The notes under the pieces: generated by a model
Told to the model about the DNA's origin: nothing
Seen by the model: the letters and a program-made list of their open reading frames with translations, nothing else
Database searches by the model: none
Shown: piece by piece, positions 2,375 through 64,000 of the stretch
Layout of the letters: every line of letters begins with the position of its first letter
How positions within the stretch are numbered: the first letter of the stretch is position 1
Source of the DNA: Candidatus Tumulicola sp.
GTDB taxonomy: Bacteria > Vulcanimicrobiota > Vulcanimicrobiia > Vulcanimicrobiales > Vulcanimicrobiaceae
DNA length: 64,000 nucleotides
Assembly (NCBI GenBank): GCA_036490475.1
Contig: DASXDT010000006.1
Coordinates: 1 to 64,000, forward strand
Direction of reading: 5' to 3'
Position numbers and translations under genes: made by a program

Positions 2375-2691
2375 GGAGTGGTCGACGGCGCCGGGCTCAC
2401 AAAAACGATCGCCTCGTTCGCACGAACCAGACGCAGCCGGTCGTGAATCTCAGGGATGGCGCCCAGCGGGTCTTGCAGCCGGCGGATTTCAGCACGCTGC
2501 GCCCCCTGGTGTTTTTGCATCGTAGCGACCTGCGCCCGAATCGATGCGAGCTTCCGGCTCATCGCGACGTTCTCGGCGATGGCCCGCGCGAACTGAATGC
2601 CGACCAGCACGATGATCAACACGGCGATGGTCAGCGCGCCGACGCGGCCGCACCAACGAACGAATTGCCGAAACGGATTGGTGCGCTTCAC
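2371..2691 (-). CDS. FtsB/DivIC-like septum formation initiator protein
   Basis: A 106-residue bitopic membrane protein: a short basic cytoplasmic N-terminus, one transmembrane helix (about residues 14-38, VGALTIAVLIIVLVGIQF) and a periplasmic coiled coil (residues about 40-80) followed by a short tail. This is the architecture of FtsB/DivIC cell-division proteins, which link FtsL and FtsQ in the divisome. I chose the GTG at 2691 because it overlaps the accA stop as GTGA, like other junctions in this operon. An ATG at 2727 would add 12 residues inside accA. FtsL and FtsQ are not in the window. Confidence 0.72.
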   Translation of the reverse strand: MKRTNPFRQFVRWCGRVGALTIAVLIIVLVGIQFARAIAENVAMSRKLASIRAQVATMQKHQGAQRAEIRRLQDPLGAIPEIHDRLRLVRANEAIVFVSPAPSTTP

Positions 2692-3671
2692 GAGGCGCCC
2701 GCTACCGGATCGAGCGAGCGAGCCCATTGGCCGATGGCGCGGTATTTATCGTAGCGGCGGTCGAGGAGTTCAGCCGGCGGCAACGGCGCGAGGAGCGAGA
2801 GCGCGGCGGAGACAGTCGACCAGACGCGCTCGATCACGGCGTTCGTATCTCGATGCGCGCCGCCGAGTGGTTCGGGAACGATGTCGTCGACGATTCCAAA
2901 CTGTTGCAAGTCCTGTGCGGTTAACTTCAACCGTTGCGCGGCTTCTTCCGCCTTGCCGGCGTCCGACCACAGAATCGCTGCGCAGCCTTCGGGCGACGCG
3001 ACCGAATAGATGCTGTGCTCGAGCATCAGAACGCGGTCGGCAATGGCTAATGCCAATGCACCGCCCGAGCCGCCTTCGCCGATAACGGTGGCGACGATCG
3101 GTACGCGCGCGATCGTAAATTCGTGCAAGCACATTGCGATAGCTTCGGACTGAGCATGCTCTTCCGACGTAATCCCGGGATCGGCACCCTTCGTATCGAC
3201 CAGCGTAACGATCGGCACCGAGAGACGCGACGCCAAGGCCGCGAGACGGCGAACTTTGCGATAACCTTCGGGCGCCGGCATGCCGAAATTGCGCTGAAGA
3301 TTCTCTTTGGTATCGCGCCCGCGTTGCTGTCCGATCGCCATCACCGGACGGCCGTGCAACAGTGCGAAACCGCCGACGATCGAGGGGTCGTCCCGGAATT
3401 GCCGATCGCCGTGCAGCTCGTCAAAGCGGTCGAGGCGCTCGATGTATTCCAACGCGGTCGGGCGACTCGGATGCCGCGCCATGTTGACTTTTTCCCATGG
3501 CGTCAGCGAGCCGAAGACTTCGTTCTGAATCGTCCGGTATTTTGTTTCCAGCGCGGCGATCTCGGCCGACATATCGACCGGTTGCGTCGCGTTGGCGGCG
3601 CGGATCTCGTCGATGCGGCGCTCGAGTTCGACCAAACCGCGTTCGCGCTCGACGATCACGTTGTTGCTCAT
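2688..3671 (-). CDS. accA: Acetyl-CoA carboxylase carboxyltransferase subunit alpha
   Basis: The 327-residue AccA pairs with AccD to transfer the carboxyl group from carboxybiotin to acetyl-CoA, giving malonyl-CoA for fatty-acid synthesis. Visible features are the N-terminal helical segment LERRIDEIRA, then NMARHPSRPTALEYIERL, DTKGADPGITSEEHAQSEAI and the glycine-rich oxyanion region IGEGGSGGALALA, followed by SVASPEGCAAILW. The start at 3671 overlaps the accD stop by 4 bp (ATGA). The frame stays open further upstream, but that part is antisense-like noise inside accD. The carrier-like domain and accC lie 60 kb away at the other end of the window. Confidence 0.96.
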   Translation of the reverse strand: MSNNVIVERERGLVELERRIDEIRAANATQPVDMSAEIAALETKYRTIQNEVFGSLTPWEKVNMARHPSRPTALEYIERLDRFDELHGDRQFRDDPSIVGGFALLHGRPVMAIGQQRGRDTKENLQRNFGMPAPEGYRKVRRLAALASRLSVPIVTLVDTKGADPGITSEEHAQSEAIAMCLHEFTIARVPIVATVIGEGGSGGALALAIADRVLMLEHSIYSVASPEGCAAILWSDAGKAEEAAQRLKLTAQDLQQFGIVDDIVPEPLGGAHRDTNAVIERVWSTVSAALSLLAPLPPAELLDRRYDKYRAIGQWARSLDPVAGAS

Positions 3672-4510
3672 CGTGCCACCGGCTTGGCGTATTCCAGCAG
3701 GCGCATCAGCGTCGCCTTGACGTTCTGTCGCTCGACCACCATGTCGATGGCGCCCTTTTCCAATAGAAACTCGGCCGTTTGAAATTGATCCGGAAGCTTT
3801 TGGCGAATCGTCTGTTCGATCACGCGCCGGCCGGCAAACCCAATCACGGCACGCGATTCGGCGATGACGACGTCGGACTGAAACGCAAACGAGGCCGAGA
3901 CGCCACCGGTGGTCGGATCGGTCAATACCGTCACGAAGAAATTGCCGGCCGCGCCAAAACGCGAAACGGCCGCGCTGGTCTTCGCCATCTGCGCCAAGGC
4001 CAGCATGCCTTCTTCCATGCGCGCGCCGCCCGATGCCGTAAACACGATGCAGGGCACGCTTCGACGCAGCGATTCTTCCAACAGCAACGCGATACGCTCT
4101 CCGACCACGCTCCCCATGGTGCCGCCACGGAAATGGAAATCCATCACGCCTAGTCCGACTTCGAATTCGCCGATATTGCCGAATCCGCAAACGACCGCTT
4201 CGACCAATCCGCTTTTTTCGCGATCGGCTTCGAGTTTATCGGGATAGGAACGGCGGTCGACCCAATCGAGCGGATCGGCGGGAGTGATGTCGGCGCCGAT
4301 TTCGACGAATTCGCCGTCGATTAACGACGCGATTCGATCGTAGGCCGACATACGAAAGTGGTACTTGCAGCGCGGACAGACGAACGCATTTGCAGCGAGA
4401 TCCCGGCGGTACACCACCTCACCGCAGTTCGGGCACTTCGACCACACCGCGACATCTTGCGTGCGGCCGTTGCGACGGTTGGAGAGCCACTCCGGCATCG
4501 ACATCGGCAC
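3668..4510 (-). CDS. accD: Acetyl-CoA carboxylase carboxyltransferase subunit beta
   Basis: The 280-residue AccD is the zinc-containing partner of AccA. The N-terminal zinc ribbon is clear (CPNCGEVVYRRDL then CPRCKYHF, residues about 26-52), followed by the crotonase-fold domain with DFHFRGGTMGSVVGE and the oxyanion-hole region TASGGARMEEG. The outermost start is GTG at 4510; ATG codons at 4504 and 4498 are equally plausible because no clear Shine-Dalgarno sequence decides between them. It is coupled to accA by a 4-bp overlap, so the heterotetramer subunits are probably made in equal amounts. Confidence 0.96.
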   Translation of the reverse strand: MPMSMPEWLSNRRNGRTQDVAVWSKCPNCGEVVYRRDLAANAFVCPRCKYHFRMSAYDRIASLIDGEFVEIGADITPADPLDWVDRRSYPDKLEADREKSGLVEAVVCGFGNIGEFEVGLGVMDFHFRGGTMGSVVGERIALLLEESLRRSVPCIVFTASGGARMEEGMLALAQMAKTSAAVSRFGAAGNFFVTVLTDPTTGGVSASFAFQSDVVIAESRAVIGFAGRRVIEQTIRQKLPDQFQTAEFLLEKGAIDMVVERQNVKATLMRLLEYAKPVAR

Positions 4511-59051: not shown

Positions 59052-61114
59052 GGCGAAGGCGACATCTGCGGAGCTTCGGTTGCGCGATCGATCGGCGATA
59101 GTGACGGCAGCGGCGCTTCGGTTGCGCGAGGATCGAGCGTGGCATACGGCGCGGCTTCGCCGTTGGACGCATCTTCGACGCTGCCACACGACGGTTCGGT
59201 TCCGCGAAGGTAATATTCGTAGCCGCCGCCGCATCCGGCCGACTTCGCGAGCTCATCGGTGGGGACGGTGAAATCGTGCGGAGGCGTTGTCGCCAAAGCG
59301 GCTTTCATAAAACGCGCCCATATACGCGCCGGCACGTTGCCGCCGTACGATTCGTTCATTTGCGTATAGTCGTCGTTGCCGAGCCACACAGCGGTGACGA
59401 GATCCGGCGTGAAACCGACGAACCACGCGTCTCGGAAGTTCGAGGTCGTTCCGGTCTTGCCGGCGGCCGGCCGGCCGATGATCGCGTTCGGATAGCCCGT
59501 GCCCTTGTTGATTACGTCCTCCAACATCGAGGTAACGATGTAGGCGGTCCCGGCGCTCACTACGTCGGTGGCTTGCGGGTAGCGTTCGTCGAGCACGACG
59601 CTTCCCAACGAATCCTTGACGACACGAAACGGCGTCGGGTCGACGTGCAGACCTTGATTGGCGAGCGTCGAGTAGCCGCTGGCCTGATCCAATACCGAAA
59701 CCACCGACGAACCCAGCGCCAGCGACAAATTGGCGTCGAGTTGCGACGTGACACCCATACGGTGCGCGTATTCGATCACGCGATCGACACCGACGCGTTC
59801 GGCGAGTTTCACCGCAACGACGTTGCGCGACTGGGTCAGCGCGTAACGCAACGTGATGTCGCCCAAGTAGCGCCCGTCATCGTCGTACGGCGACCAACGC
59901 GTGCCGTCGCCCATCGGGTAACTGACCGGCGTGTCGGCGACCGTCGCAGAGGCCGGTATGCCGGAGTCGATCGCAGCGGTATACACGTATGCTTTGAAGG
60001 AGGAACCCGGCTGACGTTTTGCCTGCCACGCGCGGTTGAACTGATTTTTTAGCGAAAACCCCGTGCCGCCCACCATCGCGAGGATCTCTCCGGTCGACGG
60101 ACGGATCGCGACCAAGGCAGCTTGATGGGCGTCGATGCCGCTGCTCAGTGCTTGATTCACGCCCCAATCGATGGCGTCTTGCGCGGCACGCTGCATGCGC
60201 GGATCGAGCGTCGTGCTCACCTGCAATCCGCCTTGCTCGACGGCGTTGACGCCAAACGTTCGCTCGAGCTGCGCGATCGCGTACGTTGTGAAGTACGGAT
60301 ATGCGTAACTCTGTAAGCCCTCGACTCGCTGTGGAATAAGCTCGAGCGGCGCTTCATATGCGGATTCGGCTTGTTCCTGCGAGATGAAGCCACTCTCGGC
60401 CATGCGCTGCAGAACGTGCCGTTGGCGTTCGCGCGCGAGCTGCATATTGACGAACGGCGAATAGTCGGAAGGGGCTGCGACGACGCCGGCCAGCATGGCG
60501 GCTTGCTGCACGCTGACGCTGCGGATCGAGCGGCCAAAATACGTATGCGCCGCAGCATCGACGCCGTACGCGCCGGCGCCGAGATAAATGATGTTGAGAT
60601 AACGCTCGAGGATCTCGTCTTTGGTGTAGAAGCGCTCGATCTCCATCGCCAGCAGCGCTTCTTCGATCTTTCGCGAGAGGGTCGGTTCGTCGTTGAGAAA
60701 CAAGCGGCGCGCCAACTGTTGGGTGATGGTCGACGCACCCTGCATCTGCTGGTGCGTTAGATCGGCATACGCGGCGCGAACGATACCGCCGAAATCGACG
60801 CCGTGATGGCTGTAAAAATTATGGTCCTCGTTGGCGATGAACGCGTCGCGGGCGATTGCCGGAATTTGCGACAGCGGCGTCCAGACGCGATTCTCGCGAT
60901 AGACCGACGCAAGCGGCGTGCCGTCACGCGCGAACAAACGCGTGGCACTCGCGGGCTGATAGTCGGCCATGCGTCCGATATCGGGAAGATTGCGTGCGTA
61001 CGCCGCGACGATGCCGGCGATCGTGCCGGCAGCAAACAGCACGATCATCAACAGGGCGATCGCGGCTCCCCGCAGCAGCCCCCAAAAGCTCCGCCGTTTA
61101 CGGCGTTTCGGCAT
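59048..61114 (-). CDS. Penicillin-binding protein 1A (bifunctional transglycosylase/transpeptidase)
   Basis: A 688-residue class A PBP. A basic N-terminus and one membrane helix (about residues 15-38) precede the GT51 domain with catalytic Glu96 in NEDHNFYSHHGVDFGG and TITQQLARRLFL. The transpeptidase domain has the nucleophile in SSFK (371-374), SRN in TQSRNVVAVK, and KTGT in AAGKTGTTSNFRD. A Ser/Pro-rich tail follows. It polymerises and cross-links peptidoglycan. Overlaps nusB by 17 bp. Confidence 0.95.
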   Translation of the reverse strand: MPKRRKRRSFWGLLRGAAIALLMIVLFAAGTIAGIVAAYARNLPDIGRMADYQPASATRLFARDGTPLASVYRENRVWTPLSQIPAIARDAFIANEDHNFYSHHGVDFGGIVRAAYADLTHQQMQGASTITQQLARRLFLNDEPTLSRKIEEALLAMEIERFYTKDEILERYLNIIYLGAGAYGVDAAAHTYFGRSIRSVSVQQAAMLAGVVAAPSDYSPFVNMQLARERQRHVLQRMAESGFISQEQAESAYEAPLELIPQRVEGLQSYAYPYFTTYAIAQLERTFGVNAVEQGGLQVSTTLDPRMQRAAQDAIDWGVNQALSSGIDAHQAALVAIRPSTGEILAMVGGTGFSLKNQFNRAWQAKRQPGSSFKAYVYTAAIDSGIPASATVADTPVSYPMGDGTRWSPYDDDGRYLGDITLRYALTQSRNVVAVKLAERVGVDRVIEYAHRMGVTSQLDANLSLALGSSVVSVLDQASGYSTLANQGLHVDPTPFRVVKDSLGSVVLDERYPQATDVVSAGTAYIVTSMLEDVINKGTGYPNAIIGRPAAGKTGTTSNFRDAWFVGFTPDLVTAVWLGNDDYTQMNESYGGNVPARIWARFMKAALATTPPHDFTVPTDELAKSAGCGGGYEYYLRGTEPSCGSVEDASNGEAAPYATLDPRATEAPLPSLSPIDRATEAPQMSPSP

Positions 61115-61523
61115 CGACCCCGGCCGCGCGGTTGCGAGCGACCGCGTTGAGCACGCCGTTGACGAACTTGCCGGAATCCTCGGTCGAAAACCGTTTGGCC
61201 AGTTCGACGGCTTCGTTGATCGCAACGGCGGTCGGGATATCGGATCGGCACTCCAACTCGTAGGTGCCCATCTGAATCAGCAGACGATCGATGGCGGGCA
61301 ATCGGTCGATGGCCCAGCCTTCGAGCAGCGGTTGCACGATCGCATCAGCCCGGTCGCGAAAATCCAACGTTCCCAACACTAACTCACGAACGAAAATTCG
61401 GTGCTCGGCGTTCTCTCCGTCGTCGCCGACCTCGGACAACGCATCGGACGGATCGCGGCTGCCGATCTCAACCGAGTACAACGCTTTGAGGGCTTGCTCG
61501 CGCCCGATTCTCCGCGCCGGCAC
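61098..61523 (-). CDS. nusB: Transcription antitermination protein NusB
   Basis: A 141-residue all-helical RNA-binding factor that works with NusE in rRNA antitermination. Family pieces: RREQALKALYSVEIG-like start (IGREQALKALYSVEIG), RLPAIDRLLIQMGTYEL and the C-terminal AINEAVELAKRFSTEDSGKFVNGVL, read in part. It starts 1 bp after the accC stop. Confidence 0.93.
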   Translation of the reverse strand: MPARRIGREQALKALYSVEIGSRDPSDALSEVGDDGENAEHRIFVRELVLGTLDFRDRADAIVQPLLEGWAIDRLPAIDRLLIQMGTYELECRSDIPTAVAINEAVELAKRFSTEDSGKFVNGVLNAVARNRAAGVDAETP

Positions 61524-61524
61524 G

Positions 61525-62871
61525 TCAGTGCACCGCCCGGGCGTACGCAGGGAGAAAACCGATATCGTAGCGGCCAGATCGAAACTCCGGCGTCCGCAGC
61601 AATTCCTGACACACCCCGACGGTCGTTCGAACGCCTTCGATCACCGTTGCCGAAAGGGCGCGTTCCATGCGCTCGATGGCCGCCTCGCGGGACGTTCCGA
61701 ACGCCACGATCTTTGCCAGCATCGAATCGTAATACGGCGGGATCGTCGCGCCGGCGAACATGTGCGTGTCGACCCGCACGTCCGGTCCGGAGGGTAACAC
61801 GAGCCGCGTCAGCGTGCCGCATTGCGGCGCGAAGTTGGCGTTTGCGTCTTCGGCATTGATACGGCATTCGATCGCGTGTCCGCGCGGCACAATGTCAGTC
61901 TGCCGCAAGCCCAGCGGCGCGCCGGAGGCGATCAGAATTTGTTCGCGCACGAGGTCGACTTCGTAAACCATCTCGGTTACCGGATGCTCGACTTGGATGC
62001 GCGTGTTCATCTCCATAAAGTACGCTTCGTCGCCCGCGCACAAAAACTCGAGCGTACCGGCATTGGTGTAACGCACGTGTTGGCACGCCCGCACGGCCAT
62101 TTCATACAACGACGCTCGCACGCCGTCGGCGAGGTGCGGCGCCGGAGATTCTTCGATCAGCTTTTGATGCGACGGCTTTTGCATCGAACAATCGCGCTCG
62201 CCCAAGTGGATGATGTTTCCGAGATCGTCGCCGAGCACTTGGATCTCGATGTGGCGCGGGTTGGCGATCAAGCGCTCGAGGTAGACGCGCCCGTCTTTGA
62301 AACTGGCTTCCGCTTCGGCCGTGGCCGAGGTAAACGCGCGTTCCAGATCGGCCTCGCGGTCGACCACGCGCATACCCTTACCACCGCCACCGGCGGTCGC
62401 CTTGATCAACACCGGATAGCCGATTGCCGCAGCGGCTTTAGCGGCGTCCGCGAGGGTTGCAACGATTCCGCTGCCGGGAGTCGTCGCAACGCCGGCCTCT
62501 TGCATCACGCGTTTGGCCGTTGCTTTGTCGCCCATGGCAGCGATCACTTCGGGCCGCGGACCGATAAACGTCAGTCCGTGATCGGCGCAGATTTCGGCGA
62601 ATCGCGCATTTTCTGCGAGAAACCCATAGCCCGGATGCACCGCGTCGCAGCCGGTGATCAACGCCGTCGAAATGATGTTCGGAATGTTGAGATACGAACG
62701 CGCGACCGGTCCCGGTCCGACGCAGAACGCCTCATCGGCTTGCGCGACGTGCTCGGACTCGCGGTCCGCTTCAGAAAATACCGCAACGGTAGCGACGTCC
62801 AATTCGCGGCACGCGCGTTCGACCCGGACCGCTATCTCGCCGCGGTTGGCGATTAGGACCTTGCGAAAGAT
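61525..62871 (-). CDS. accC: Biotin carboxylase (acetyl-CoA carboxylase subunit)
   Basis: A 448-residue ATP-grasp enzyme that carboxylates biotin on the carrier protein. Motifs: the start region FRKVLIANRGEIAVRV, HPGYGFLAENARFAEIC, the glycine loop KATAGGGGKGMRVV, MEMNTRIQVEHPVTEMVY, in part, and GHAIECRINAEDA. No ATG, GTG or TTG lies between the upstream stop and the conserved N-terminus. The codon where family members have Met is ATC at 62871, 7 nt after GAGGA, so AUC initiation is likely. Confidence 0.95.
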   Translation of the reverse strand: MFRKVLIANRGEIAVRVERACRELDVATVAVFSEADRESEHVAQADEAFCVGPGPVARSYLNIPNIISTALITGCDAVHPGYGFLAENARFAEICADHGLTFIGPRPEVIAAMGDKATAKRVMQEAGVATTPGSGIVATLADAAKAAAAIGYPVLIKATAGGGGKGMRVVDREADLERAFTSATAEAEASFKDGRVYLERLIANPRHIEIQVLGDDLGNIIHLGERDCSMQKPSHQKLIEESPAPHLADGVRASLYEMAVRACQHVRYTNAGTLEFLCAGDEAYFMEMNTRIQVEHPVTEMVYEVDLVREQILIASGAPLGLRQTDIVPRGHAIECRINAEDANANFAPQCGTLTRLVLPSGPDVRVDTHMFAGATIPPYYDSMLAKIVAFGTSREAAIERMERALSATVIEGVRTTVGVCQELLRTPEFRSGRYDIGFLPAYARAVH

Positions 62872-62875
62872 TGCC

Positions 62876-63766
62876 TTATCCTCGATCGAGCAAGAACAGC
62901 GGCTGACCGTATTCGACCGGCAATCCGTCGCCGGCCGCGATAGCAACGATTCGTCCGCCGCCGAGACTGTGAACCGCGTTGCGAATGCCCAGCGCTTCGA
63001 TGTACGCCAACTCGCGATCGGCAGCGAAGGACTCGCCGGCCGCCGGAGCAGGCTTTGCGAGCCGGAAGATGCCGACCACGTCGGCGCGGATCGTATCGAC
63101 GCGTTCGGCTTGGGGCGGTGCGGACATCCCGGCGGCGCTTCGCGCGCTACGGCCGAGTTCGATATGCGCCTCGCCACGTTCGATCCGCAACGAAACGATG
63201 TCGGAAGCTGCCAAGAACTCGGCGAGCCGGCGGATACGATCGGCTCCATACGCGTCCTGAGGCATGGCCGTTAGGCTTCCGCCCGCCATTGACGAGACCC
63301 TCGGCGGCACCAGCGGCGCGACGGTTGCCAGCTCTTCCGGCGGCAGAGCGTCTCGATCTGGCGCGTACGCCGGATCGATCTCGGCCAGCGGCACCAACAC
63401 GAACGCGCGCTCGCGCAGTCGTGGGTGGGGCAACACAAGCGCTCCCACGGACCGCACGTCGTCGAACGTGAGGACGTCCAGGTCGATCGCTCGTGCCCCC
63501 CATCGCGCGCCCGGCCGGCGACCCAACCGGCGTTCCAACGACTGCAGCGCGCGGAGAAACGGAACCGGATCGAGATCGGTTCGCAGCGCGACCACCGCGT
63601 TGATAAAGTCGGGCTGGTCGATTCCGCCCCACGGTTTGGTGCGATACAACTGCGACCGCACGTCGACCGCTCCCAACTCACCAAGTGCCGCGATCGCGCG
63701 CTCGATGGTCGCGGCGGCGTCGCCGAGATTCGCTCCCAGACCGACGTACGCGCGGTGAGCGCCTAT
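62876..63766 (-). CDS. folK: FolK fused to a biotin-carboxyl-carrier-like domain lacking the biotin lysine
   Basis: A 296-residue fusion with no stop between its parts. Residues 1-160 are 6-hydroxymethyl-dihydropterin pyrophosphokinase (folate synthesis): AYVGLGANLGD, the RWGARAIDLDVLTFD metal/ATP motif (88-102) and PHPRLRERAFVLVPLAEI. Residues 168-296 resemble AccB: the helical DRIRRLAEFLAASDIVSLRI, then IRADVVGIFRLAKP and the biotinyl fold ending PVEYGQPLFLL. The biotin site EAMKM reads EALGI (257-261), so biotinylation is not possible there. Start: ATA at 63766, overlapping the folB stop (ATAG), 8 nt after GGAGG. An internal ATG at 63265 could make the carrier-like part alone. Confidence 0.85.
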   Translation of the reverse strand: MGAHRAYVGLGANLGDAAATIERAIAALGELGAVDVRSQLYRTKPWGGIDQPDFINAVVALRTDLDPVPFLRALQSLERRLGRRPGARWGARAIDLDVLTFDDVRSVGALVLPHPRLRERAFVLVPLAEIDPAYAPDRDALPPEELATVAPLVPPRVSSMAGGSLTAMPQDAYGADRIRRLAEFLAASDIVSLRIERGEAHIELGRSARSAAGMSAPPQAERVDTIRADVVGIFRLAKPAPAAGESFAADRELAYIEALGIRNAVHSLGGGRIVAIAAGDGLPVEYGQPLFLLDRG

Positions 63767-64000
63767 GGGTCGCGCCTCCGGGACAGCGTCACGGCCGGCG
63801 TCGCGCCGTCGAGGATATCGGGCTTGGCAACCGTCACCTCCGCCGACAAGACGCGTGGATCTTCCAAGACGGCGTCGATCAGTGCGGCTGCCAGACGTTC
63901 GAGTAGCGCGAACGACGTTTCGGCGACAATCGATACGAGGCGCCGATGCAACGCATCGTAATCGATCGTGTCGGCAAGATCGTCGGACGCCGCCGCCGCG
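63763..64000 (-). CDS. folB: Dihydroneopterin aldolase, C-terminal part (runs off right edge)
   Basis: About 78 residues of a FolB-type protein, open to the window edge: ASDDLADTIDYDALHRRL, in part, then FALLERLAAALIDAVL with the catalytic-region Glu, and VAKPDILDGATPAVTLSR. The DDLADTIDY and KP pieces fit dihydroneopterin aldolase, the step before FolK in folate synthesis. Its stop overlaps the folK start (ATAG). The start is outside the window. Confidence 0.88.
   Translation of the reverse strand, partial: AAAASDDLADTIDYDALHRRLVSIVAETSFALLERLAAALIDAVLEDPRVLSAEVTVAKPDILDGATPAVTLSRRRDP

Follow-up and report, generated by a model that had tools for sequence, protein, structure and literature searches.

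Acetyl-CoA carboxylase supplies fatty-acid synthesis with its first committed precursor. One of its subunits, the biotin carrier BCCP (AccB in E. coli), is established to bind biotin carboxylase (PMC11926652). Plants possess in addition the BADC proteins, which share 25–30% identity with BCCP but not its biotin motif and which assemble biotin carboxylase with BCCP, while an older view, as cited in the same paper, took plant BADC for an inhibitor of acetyl-CoA carboxylase; this biotin-less subunit was called unique to plants in 2025 (PMC11926652). Among open-access papers we found no lysine-less BCCP paralogue from bacteria, which is weak evidence. The BCCPs of the Chloroflexus acetyl-CoA carboxylase, for their part, keep EAMKM. 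Here we describe a bacterial BCCP relative, designated AccB', that has lost the biotinyl lysine and is encoded directly before the biotin carboxylase gene accC.

The accB' locus and its product

The window, meaning the whole stretch of 64,000 nucleotides that was analysed, carries the minus-strand gene order folB-folK-accB'-accC-nusB, and the genes for the carboxyltransferase subunits lie in the same stretch. The features are as follows.

63763..64000, minus strand: folB (3' part), upstream of folK (Pfam FolB, 2.4e-15)
63290..63766, minus strand: folK (HPPK), sharing its open frame with accB' (Pfam, TIGR01498)
63266..63312, minus strand: FolK C-terminal tail or linker carrying the upstream element (GAGGGTC ... 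GCGGAAGC ... ATG; sequence comparison)
62876..63265, minus strand: accB', AccB/BCCP paralogue of 129 aa, MPQDAYG...LLDRG, stop codon at 62876-62878 (profile, AlphaFold model, conservation)
62876..63265, minus strand: domains of accB', an AccB-type N-terminal segment and a biotinyl domain
62987..62989, minus strand: codon at the biotinyl-lysine position, Gly (EALGI; EAMKM in canonical BCCP; alignment, residue counts)
61525..62871, minus strand: accC, biotin carboxylase, with an apparent ATC start at 62869-62871 (Pfam, NCBIfam accC)
61098..61523, minus strand: nusB, next gene downstream of accC (Pfam NusB, 4.1e-32)
3668..4510, minus strand: accD, carboxyltransferase beta with zinc ribbon (Pfam Carboxyl_trans, Zn_ribbon_ACC)
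2688..4190, minus strand: accA, within this frame, carboxyltransferase alpha (Pfam ACCA, 1.9e-126)

As the first-pass annotation had it, FolK is joined in one frame to an AccB-like domain: the frame 62876-63766 (minus strand) is open throughout, with no stop between an N-terminal HPPK match and a BCCP-like C-terminal part. The FolK part is intact (Pfam HPPK 3.7e-37; TIGR01498 126 bits against a cut-off of 54), carrying the HPPK signature RWGARAIDLDVL and, matching R..D-[LIV]-D, the segment GARAIDLDVL. Its apparent start is ATA (63764-63766, minus strand), which overlaps the folB stop TAG (63763-63765) as ATAG and lies behind GGAGG; in relatives the corresponding codon is GTG or ATG. The accB' stop and the accC start are separated by 4 nt in the window, and the two genes overlap at other loci.

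AccB' is BCCP-like yet scores below the family cut-offs, with 39.8 bits for TIGR00531 (cut-off 115) and 20.4 bits for PF00364 (cut-off 22.1). A profile built from the AccB' family aligns with almost the entire E. coli AccB (4hr7_B, E 3.8e-24), and no BADC chain is found among the PDB matches listed for this profile. The AlphaFold model reaches a pLDDT of about 98 over the biotinyl domain, and the closest solved fold in VIA-align is E. coli BCCP (1bdo: Z 12.9, 75 residues, rmsd 2.2; 4hr7_G: Z 12.6, 72 residues, rmsd 1.5); Arabidopsis BCCP1 ranks sixth (Z 11.9, 74 residues, rmsd 2.1). Profile, model and fold match thus agree on a BCCP fold with an AccB-type N-terminal segment. The biotinyl lysine in its E-A-M-K-M context is absent from AccB' of the window, and the earlier reading that EALGI replaces EAMKM while the rest of the fold is kept is borne out by the alignment, by the model and by BCCP being the nearest fold. 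Sequences 22–60% identical to that of the window retain VG, the central Glu and DG.PVEYG..L. The alignment also places a gap of about 5 residues in the BCCP thumb of AccB' from the window's class, and with this shortened thumb the binding mode may differ from that of BCCP. The dN/dS ratio of AccB' is 0.09–0.39 in 18 pairs, near that of FolK and above that of AccC; AccB' is under purifying selection and is not a pseudogene.

The source genome, assembled as a draft into seven contigs (3.32 Mb, 96% complete), also encodes a canonical AccB, as had been predicted from the missing lysine: a genome search located it, with the motif EAMKLFNEI, at C6:926152-926598 (L007:1282-1731), flanked by a hisS-like gene and a SIS-domain gene and about 27% identical to AccB'. 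The possibility that AccB' is the sole BCCP of the genome was hence rejected. AccC of the window is the only stand-alone biotin carboxylase in the genome, the other two biotin carboxylase domains lying in long frames that each also contain a biotinyl domain, for which reason we rejected the idea that AccB' serves another stand-alone biotin carboxylase. A single stand-alone AccC, together with accA and accD, indicates a single four-part acetyl-CoA carboxylase that has two proteins of the BCCP type.

Distribution of AccB' and the age of the duplication

The phylum of the source bacterium, here named Eremiobacterota, was searched in 149 genomes, of which 131 gave AccB'-like matches and 131 gave AccB matches, a few weak matches in each search being the other paralogue. 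We read 102 AccB' loci from across the phylum: accB' is followed by accC in every one, and the residue at the lysine site is Gly in 83, Arg in 7, Asn in 5, Lys in 5 and Ser in 2. Genome G118, which consists of one contig, also carries this gene pair. The unlinked canonical AccB of the phylum, on the other hand, has Lys in 57/57 cases and accC adjoining in 0/57, and AccB-type genes of other phyla likewise have Lys (90/90), including two Elusimicrobia copies with the odd motif EVGK. Gly is fixed in the loci read from families f1 and f2, under the motif E[AQTS]LG[IMV]; family f3 shows EALRL, EALKL or EALKV, and the outer families of the phylum mostly have R, S, N or G. The constant feature of AccB' is its linkage to accC and not to folK. 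Two outcomes that would have spoken against the earlier reading, a lysine at this site in homologues generally or a genome devoid of any other BCCP, did not occur. One locus (L209; G077:C3:1898113-1902526) has, besides an AccB'-accC pair, an extra Lys-bearing accB (EVMKLMN) beside a second accC. Neither AccB' nor AccB was found in the four genomes G001-G004 of family f4, two of which are 97–98% complete, and this lineage may do without an acetyl-CoA carboxylase of the AccB'/AccB type.

The two-copy state extends beyond this phylum: matches occur in 119 of 121 Armatimonadota genomes, usually as two copies. There the AccB'-type copy has Lys in 13 of 30 cases (otherwise G, R, T or N) while the other copy has it in 21 of 21. 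In the tree, AccB' of Armatimonadota and Eremiobacterota all fall on one side of a branch against the canonical AccBs (SH-aLRT 81), and the canonical AccBs of both phyla are joined (SH-aLRT 94), so that the sequences lend moderate support to a split between AccB' and AccB. At least eight changes between Lys and non-Lys are counted within the AccB' part. Elusimicrobiota have two AccB-type genes in 31/31 genomes sampled, and their accC-linked copy mostly keeps Lys. This linked copy (L331-L359) shows an altered context around the site, EAMKIIKD or EAMKVMKE, and a few members have Arg or the odd EVGKEF and ETVSKKH. A single clade of all accC-linked copies, Elusimicrobiota included, does not appear in the best tree and is not rejected (AU p 0.077). 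Given the tree and the distribution of two copies over the phyla, the duplication of AccB and AccB' is probably old, and Lys at the AccB' site has probably changed more than once. The Lys-bearing AccB' proteins (5 in Eremiobacterota, 13/30 in Armatimonadota) may be working BCCPs in some members.

The start of accC and the proposed role of AccB'

At the position of AccC Met1, 20 of the 90 accB'-accC loci have ATT, 10 have ATC, as in the window, and 2 have GTT; loci L023-L050 and L134-L148 are among those with such a near-cognate start. For 21 of these 32 loci, the stretch from the preceding in-frame stop to the apparent accC start codon holds neither ATG nor GTG nor TTG, and several of the 21 also have none in the first 14 codons past the start position. 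It is unusual for a metabolic gene to conserve a near-cognate start. Starts of the ATT/ATC/GTC type are known from infC and from Streptomyces sigR, where they are repressed by IF3, which limits translation (PMC5472188). The position of such a start few nt past the accB' stop suggests that less AccC than AccB' could be made, in part by ribosomes arriving from accB'.

We hold it quite probable, by analogy with plants, that AccB' is an ancient non-biotinylatable BCCP paralogue which the AccC part of acetyl-CoA carboxylase has retained as a non-catalytic subunit. A lysine-less BCCP-like domain is conserved in the lineage and a separate biotinylatable BCCP is present in the genome; it is this BADC-like anatomy, together with the genetic tie to the only stand-alone AccC, that leads us to infer a non-catalytic subunit bound to AccC. 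AccB' would be made together with AccC, would occupy BCCP-type positions on the AccC dimer or pair with AccB, and would stabilise the complex and/or limit the number of active biotin-bearing AccBs held there, as has been proposed for plant BADC. The idea of a bacterial BADC analogue put forward in the first-pass annotation therefore stands as far as the BADC arrangement is concerned, with a protein that is lysine-less, conserved, linked to accC and accompanied by a separate AccB, and finds no support in the part that built on the fusion with FolK.

AccB' could instead be a relic of the AccB of an accBC operon that was displaced by another copy and persists because its translation helps that of accC, which we regard as rather unlikely. 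The operonic position is indeed kept, and the accC starts AUU and AUC lying just past the accB' stop in many genomes could need ribosomes from accB'. However, AccB' is constrained to a degree similar to FolK (dN/dS 0.09–0.39), its protein signature (VG.F, G, DG.PVEYG..L) is kept across the phylum at 22–60% identity, and the fold model is confident; a mere translated leader would need no intact BCCP fold.

That AccB' is an inhibitor and not an assembly factor, competing with biotinylated AccB for AccC and so braking malonyl-CoA synthesis, appears unlikely. Such a role was proposed for BADC in early plant work (as cited in PMC11926652), and a protein made next to AccC could fill the BCCP sites; later plant reconstitution nevertheless favours assembly (PMC11926652), and a constitutive subunit agrees better with the fixed linkage and the strong conservation. 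Assembly and inhibition by AccB' are not separable from sequence.

The first-pass annotation had supposed that the FolK fusion would tie folate synthesis to fatty-acid synthesis. The joined frame occurs in 20 loci, namely in the window, at 15 loci of genus g5 and at four further ones, whereas the congener G108 and most other genera have folK and accB' unfused, and the outer families have accB'-accC without folK nearby; a comparison of homologues shows the loss of Lys to be conserved (Gly in 83 of 102) and the fusion, found mainly in one genus, not to be. Linker lengths in g5 range from 102 to 144 nt and always keep the frame, which suggests that in this genus the joined polypeptide is made and is tolerated or used. 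A functional fusion coupling folate synthesis to acetyl-CoA carboxylase would draw on this retention in the 15 g5 loci and on the joined frame of the window. Against it, besides the unfused loci, AccB' keeps an ATG at its unfused start position in 19 of the 20 joined frames, and fused and unfused loci alike carry the same nucleotide element 5' of accB' (a G-rich block near -36 and GCGAA near -16). We therefore consider such a coupling very improbable and the claim of a tie between the two pathways not upheld. The element, which in the window lies in the 3' end of folK (63266-63312), could be a promoter or another signal; as a general start signal within the window, GCGAA occurs in few cases only. 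At one g5 locus (L049, genome G041) a TAG stands three codons past the accB' ATG in the joined frame, either a real change or an assembly error. From these comparisons we read the FolK fusion as a secondary, lineage-specific addition and not as the basis of AccB' function. Finally, a lysine lost through sequencing or assembly error, conceivable in a draft assembly of seven contigs, is for practical purposes excluded by Gly at the site in 83 of 102 independent loci, the homologues having already refuted it.

Comparison with known systems

Taken more widely, we lean towards the view that bacteria own a BADC, that is, an accC-linked non-catalytic BCCP paralogue older than the split of Eremiobacterota and Armatimonadota, which would have lost its biotin site repeatedly (to Gly, Arg, Asn, Ser or Thr) and would be an obligate structural or regulatory subunit of acetyl-CoA carboxylase. 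If this is true, a BCCP subunit without biotin is no innovation of plants, and a counterpart found in bacteria, across most of one phylum and part of another, would offer a simpler system for the question of assembly versus inhibition. With Lys, Arg, Asn, Ser, Thr and Gly all occurring at the site in a single group of related genes, AccB' forms a natural series in which to ask under what conditions a carrier can dispense with its cofactor, and why.

Plant BADC1-3 of the plastid heteromeric acetyl-CoA carboxylase resemble AccB' in being BCCP relatives without the biotinyl lysine that coexist with a normal BCCP in the same genome. AccB' differs from them in being bacterial and operon-linked to accC, in the thumb shortened in its class, and in that some of its members have Lys, or Arg, Asn or Ser, at the site; the likeness is one of anatomy. 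With AccB/BCCP of the E. coli type AccB' shares the N-terminal segment, the fold of the biotinyl domain and the position immediately before accC, but its biotinyl Lys is replaced by Gly, its thumb is about 5 residues shorter, and biotin is supplied by a second AccB. The accC start is comparable to those of infC and Streptomyces sigR in being a non-canonical ATT/ATC/GTC start; the IF3 effect has been shown in those genes, whereas the putative start described here belongs to accC and comes right behind accB'. To our knowledge, none of the 'glue' subunits of bacterial acyl-CoA carboxylases is a BCCP paralogue, as AccB' is. Those non-catalytic subunits are likewise thought, in work cited in PMC11926652, to hold a biotin-dependent carboxylase together.
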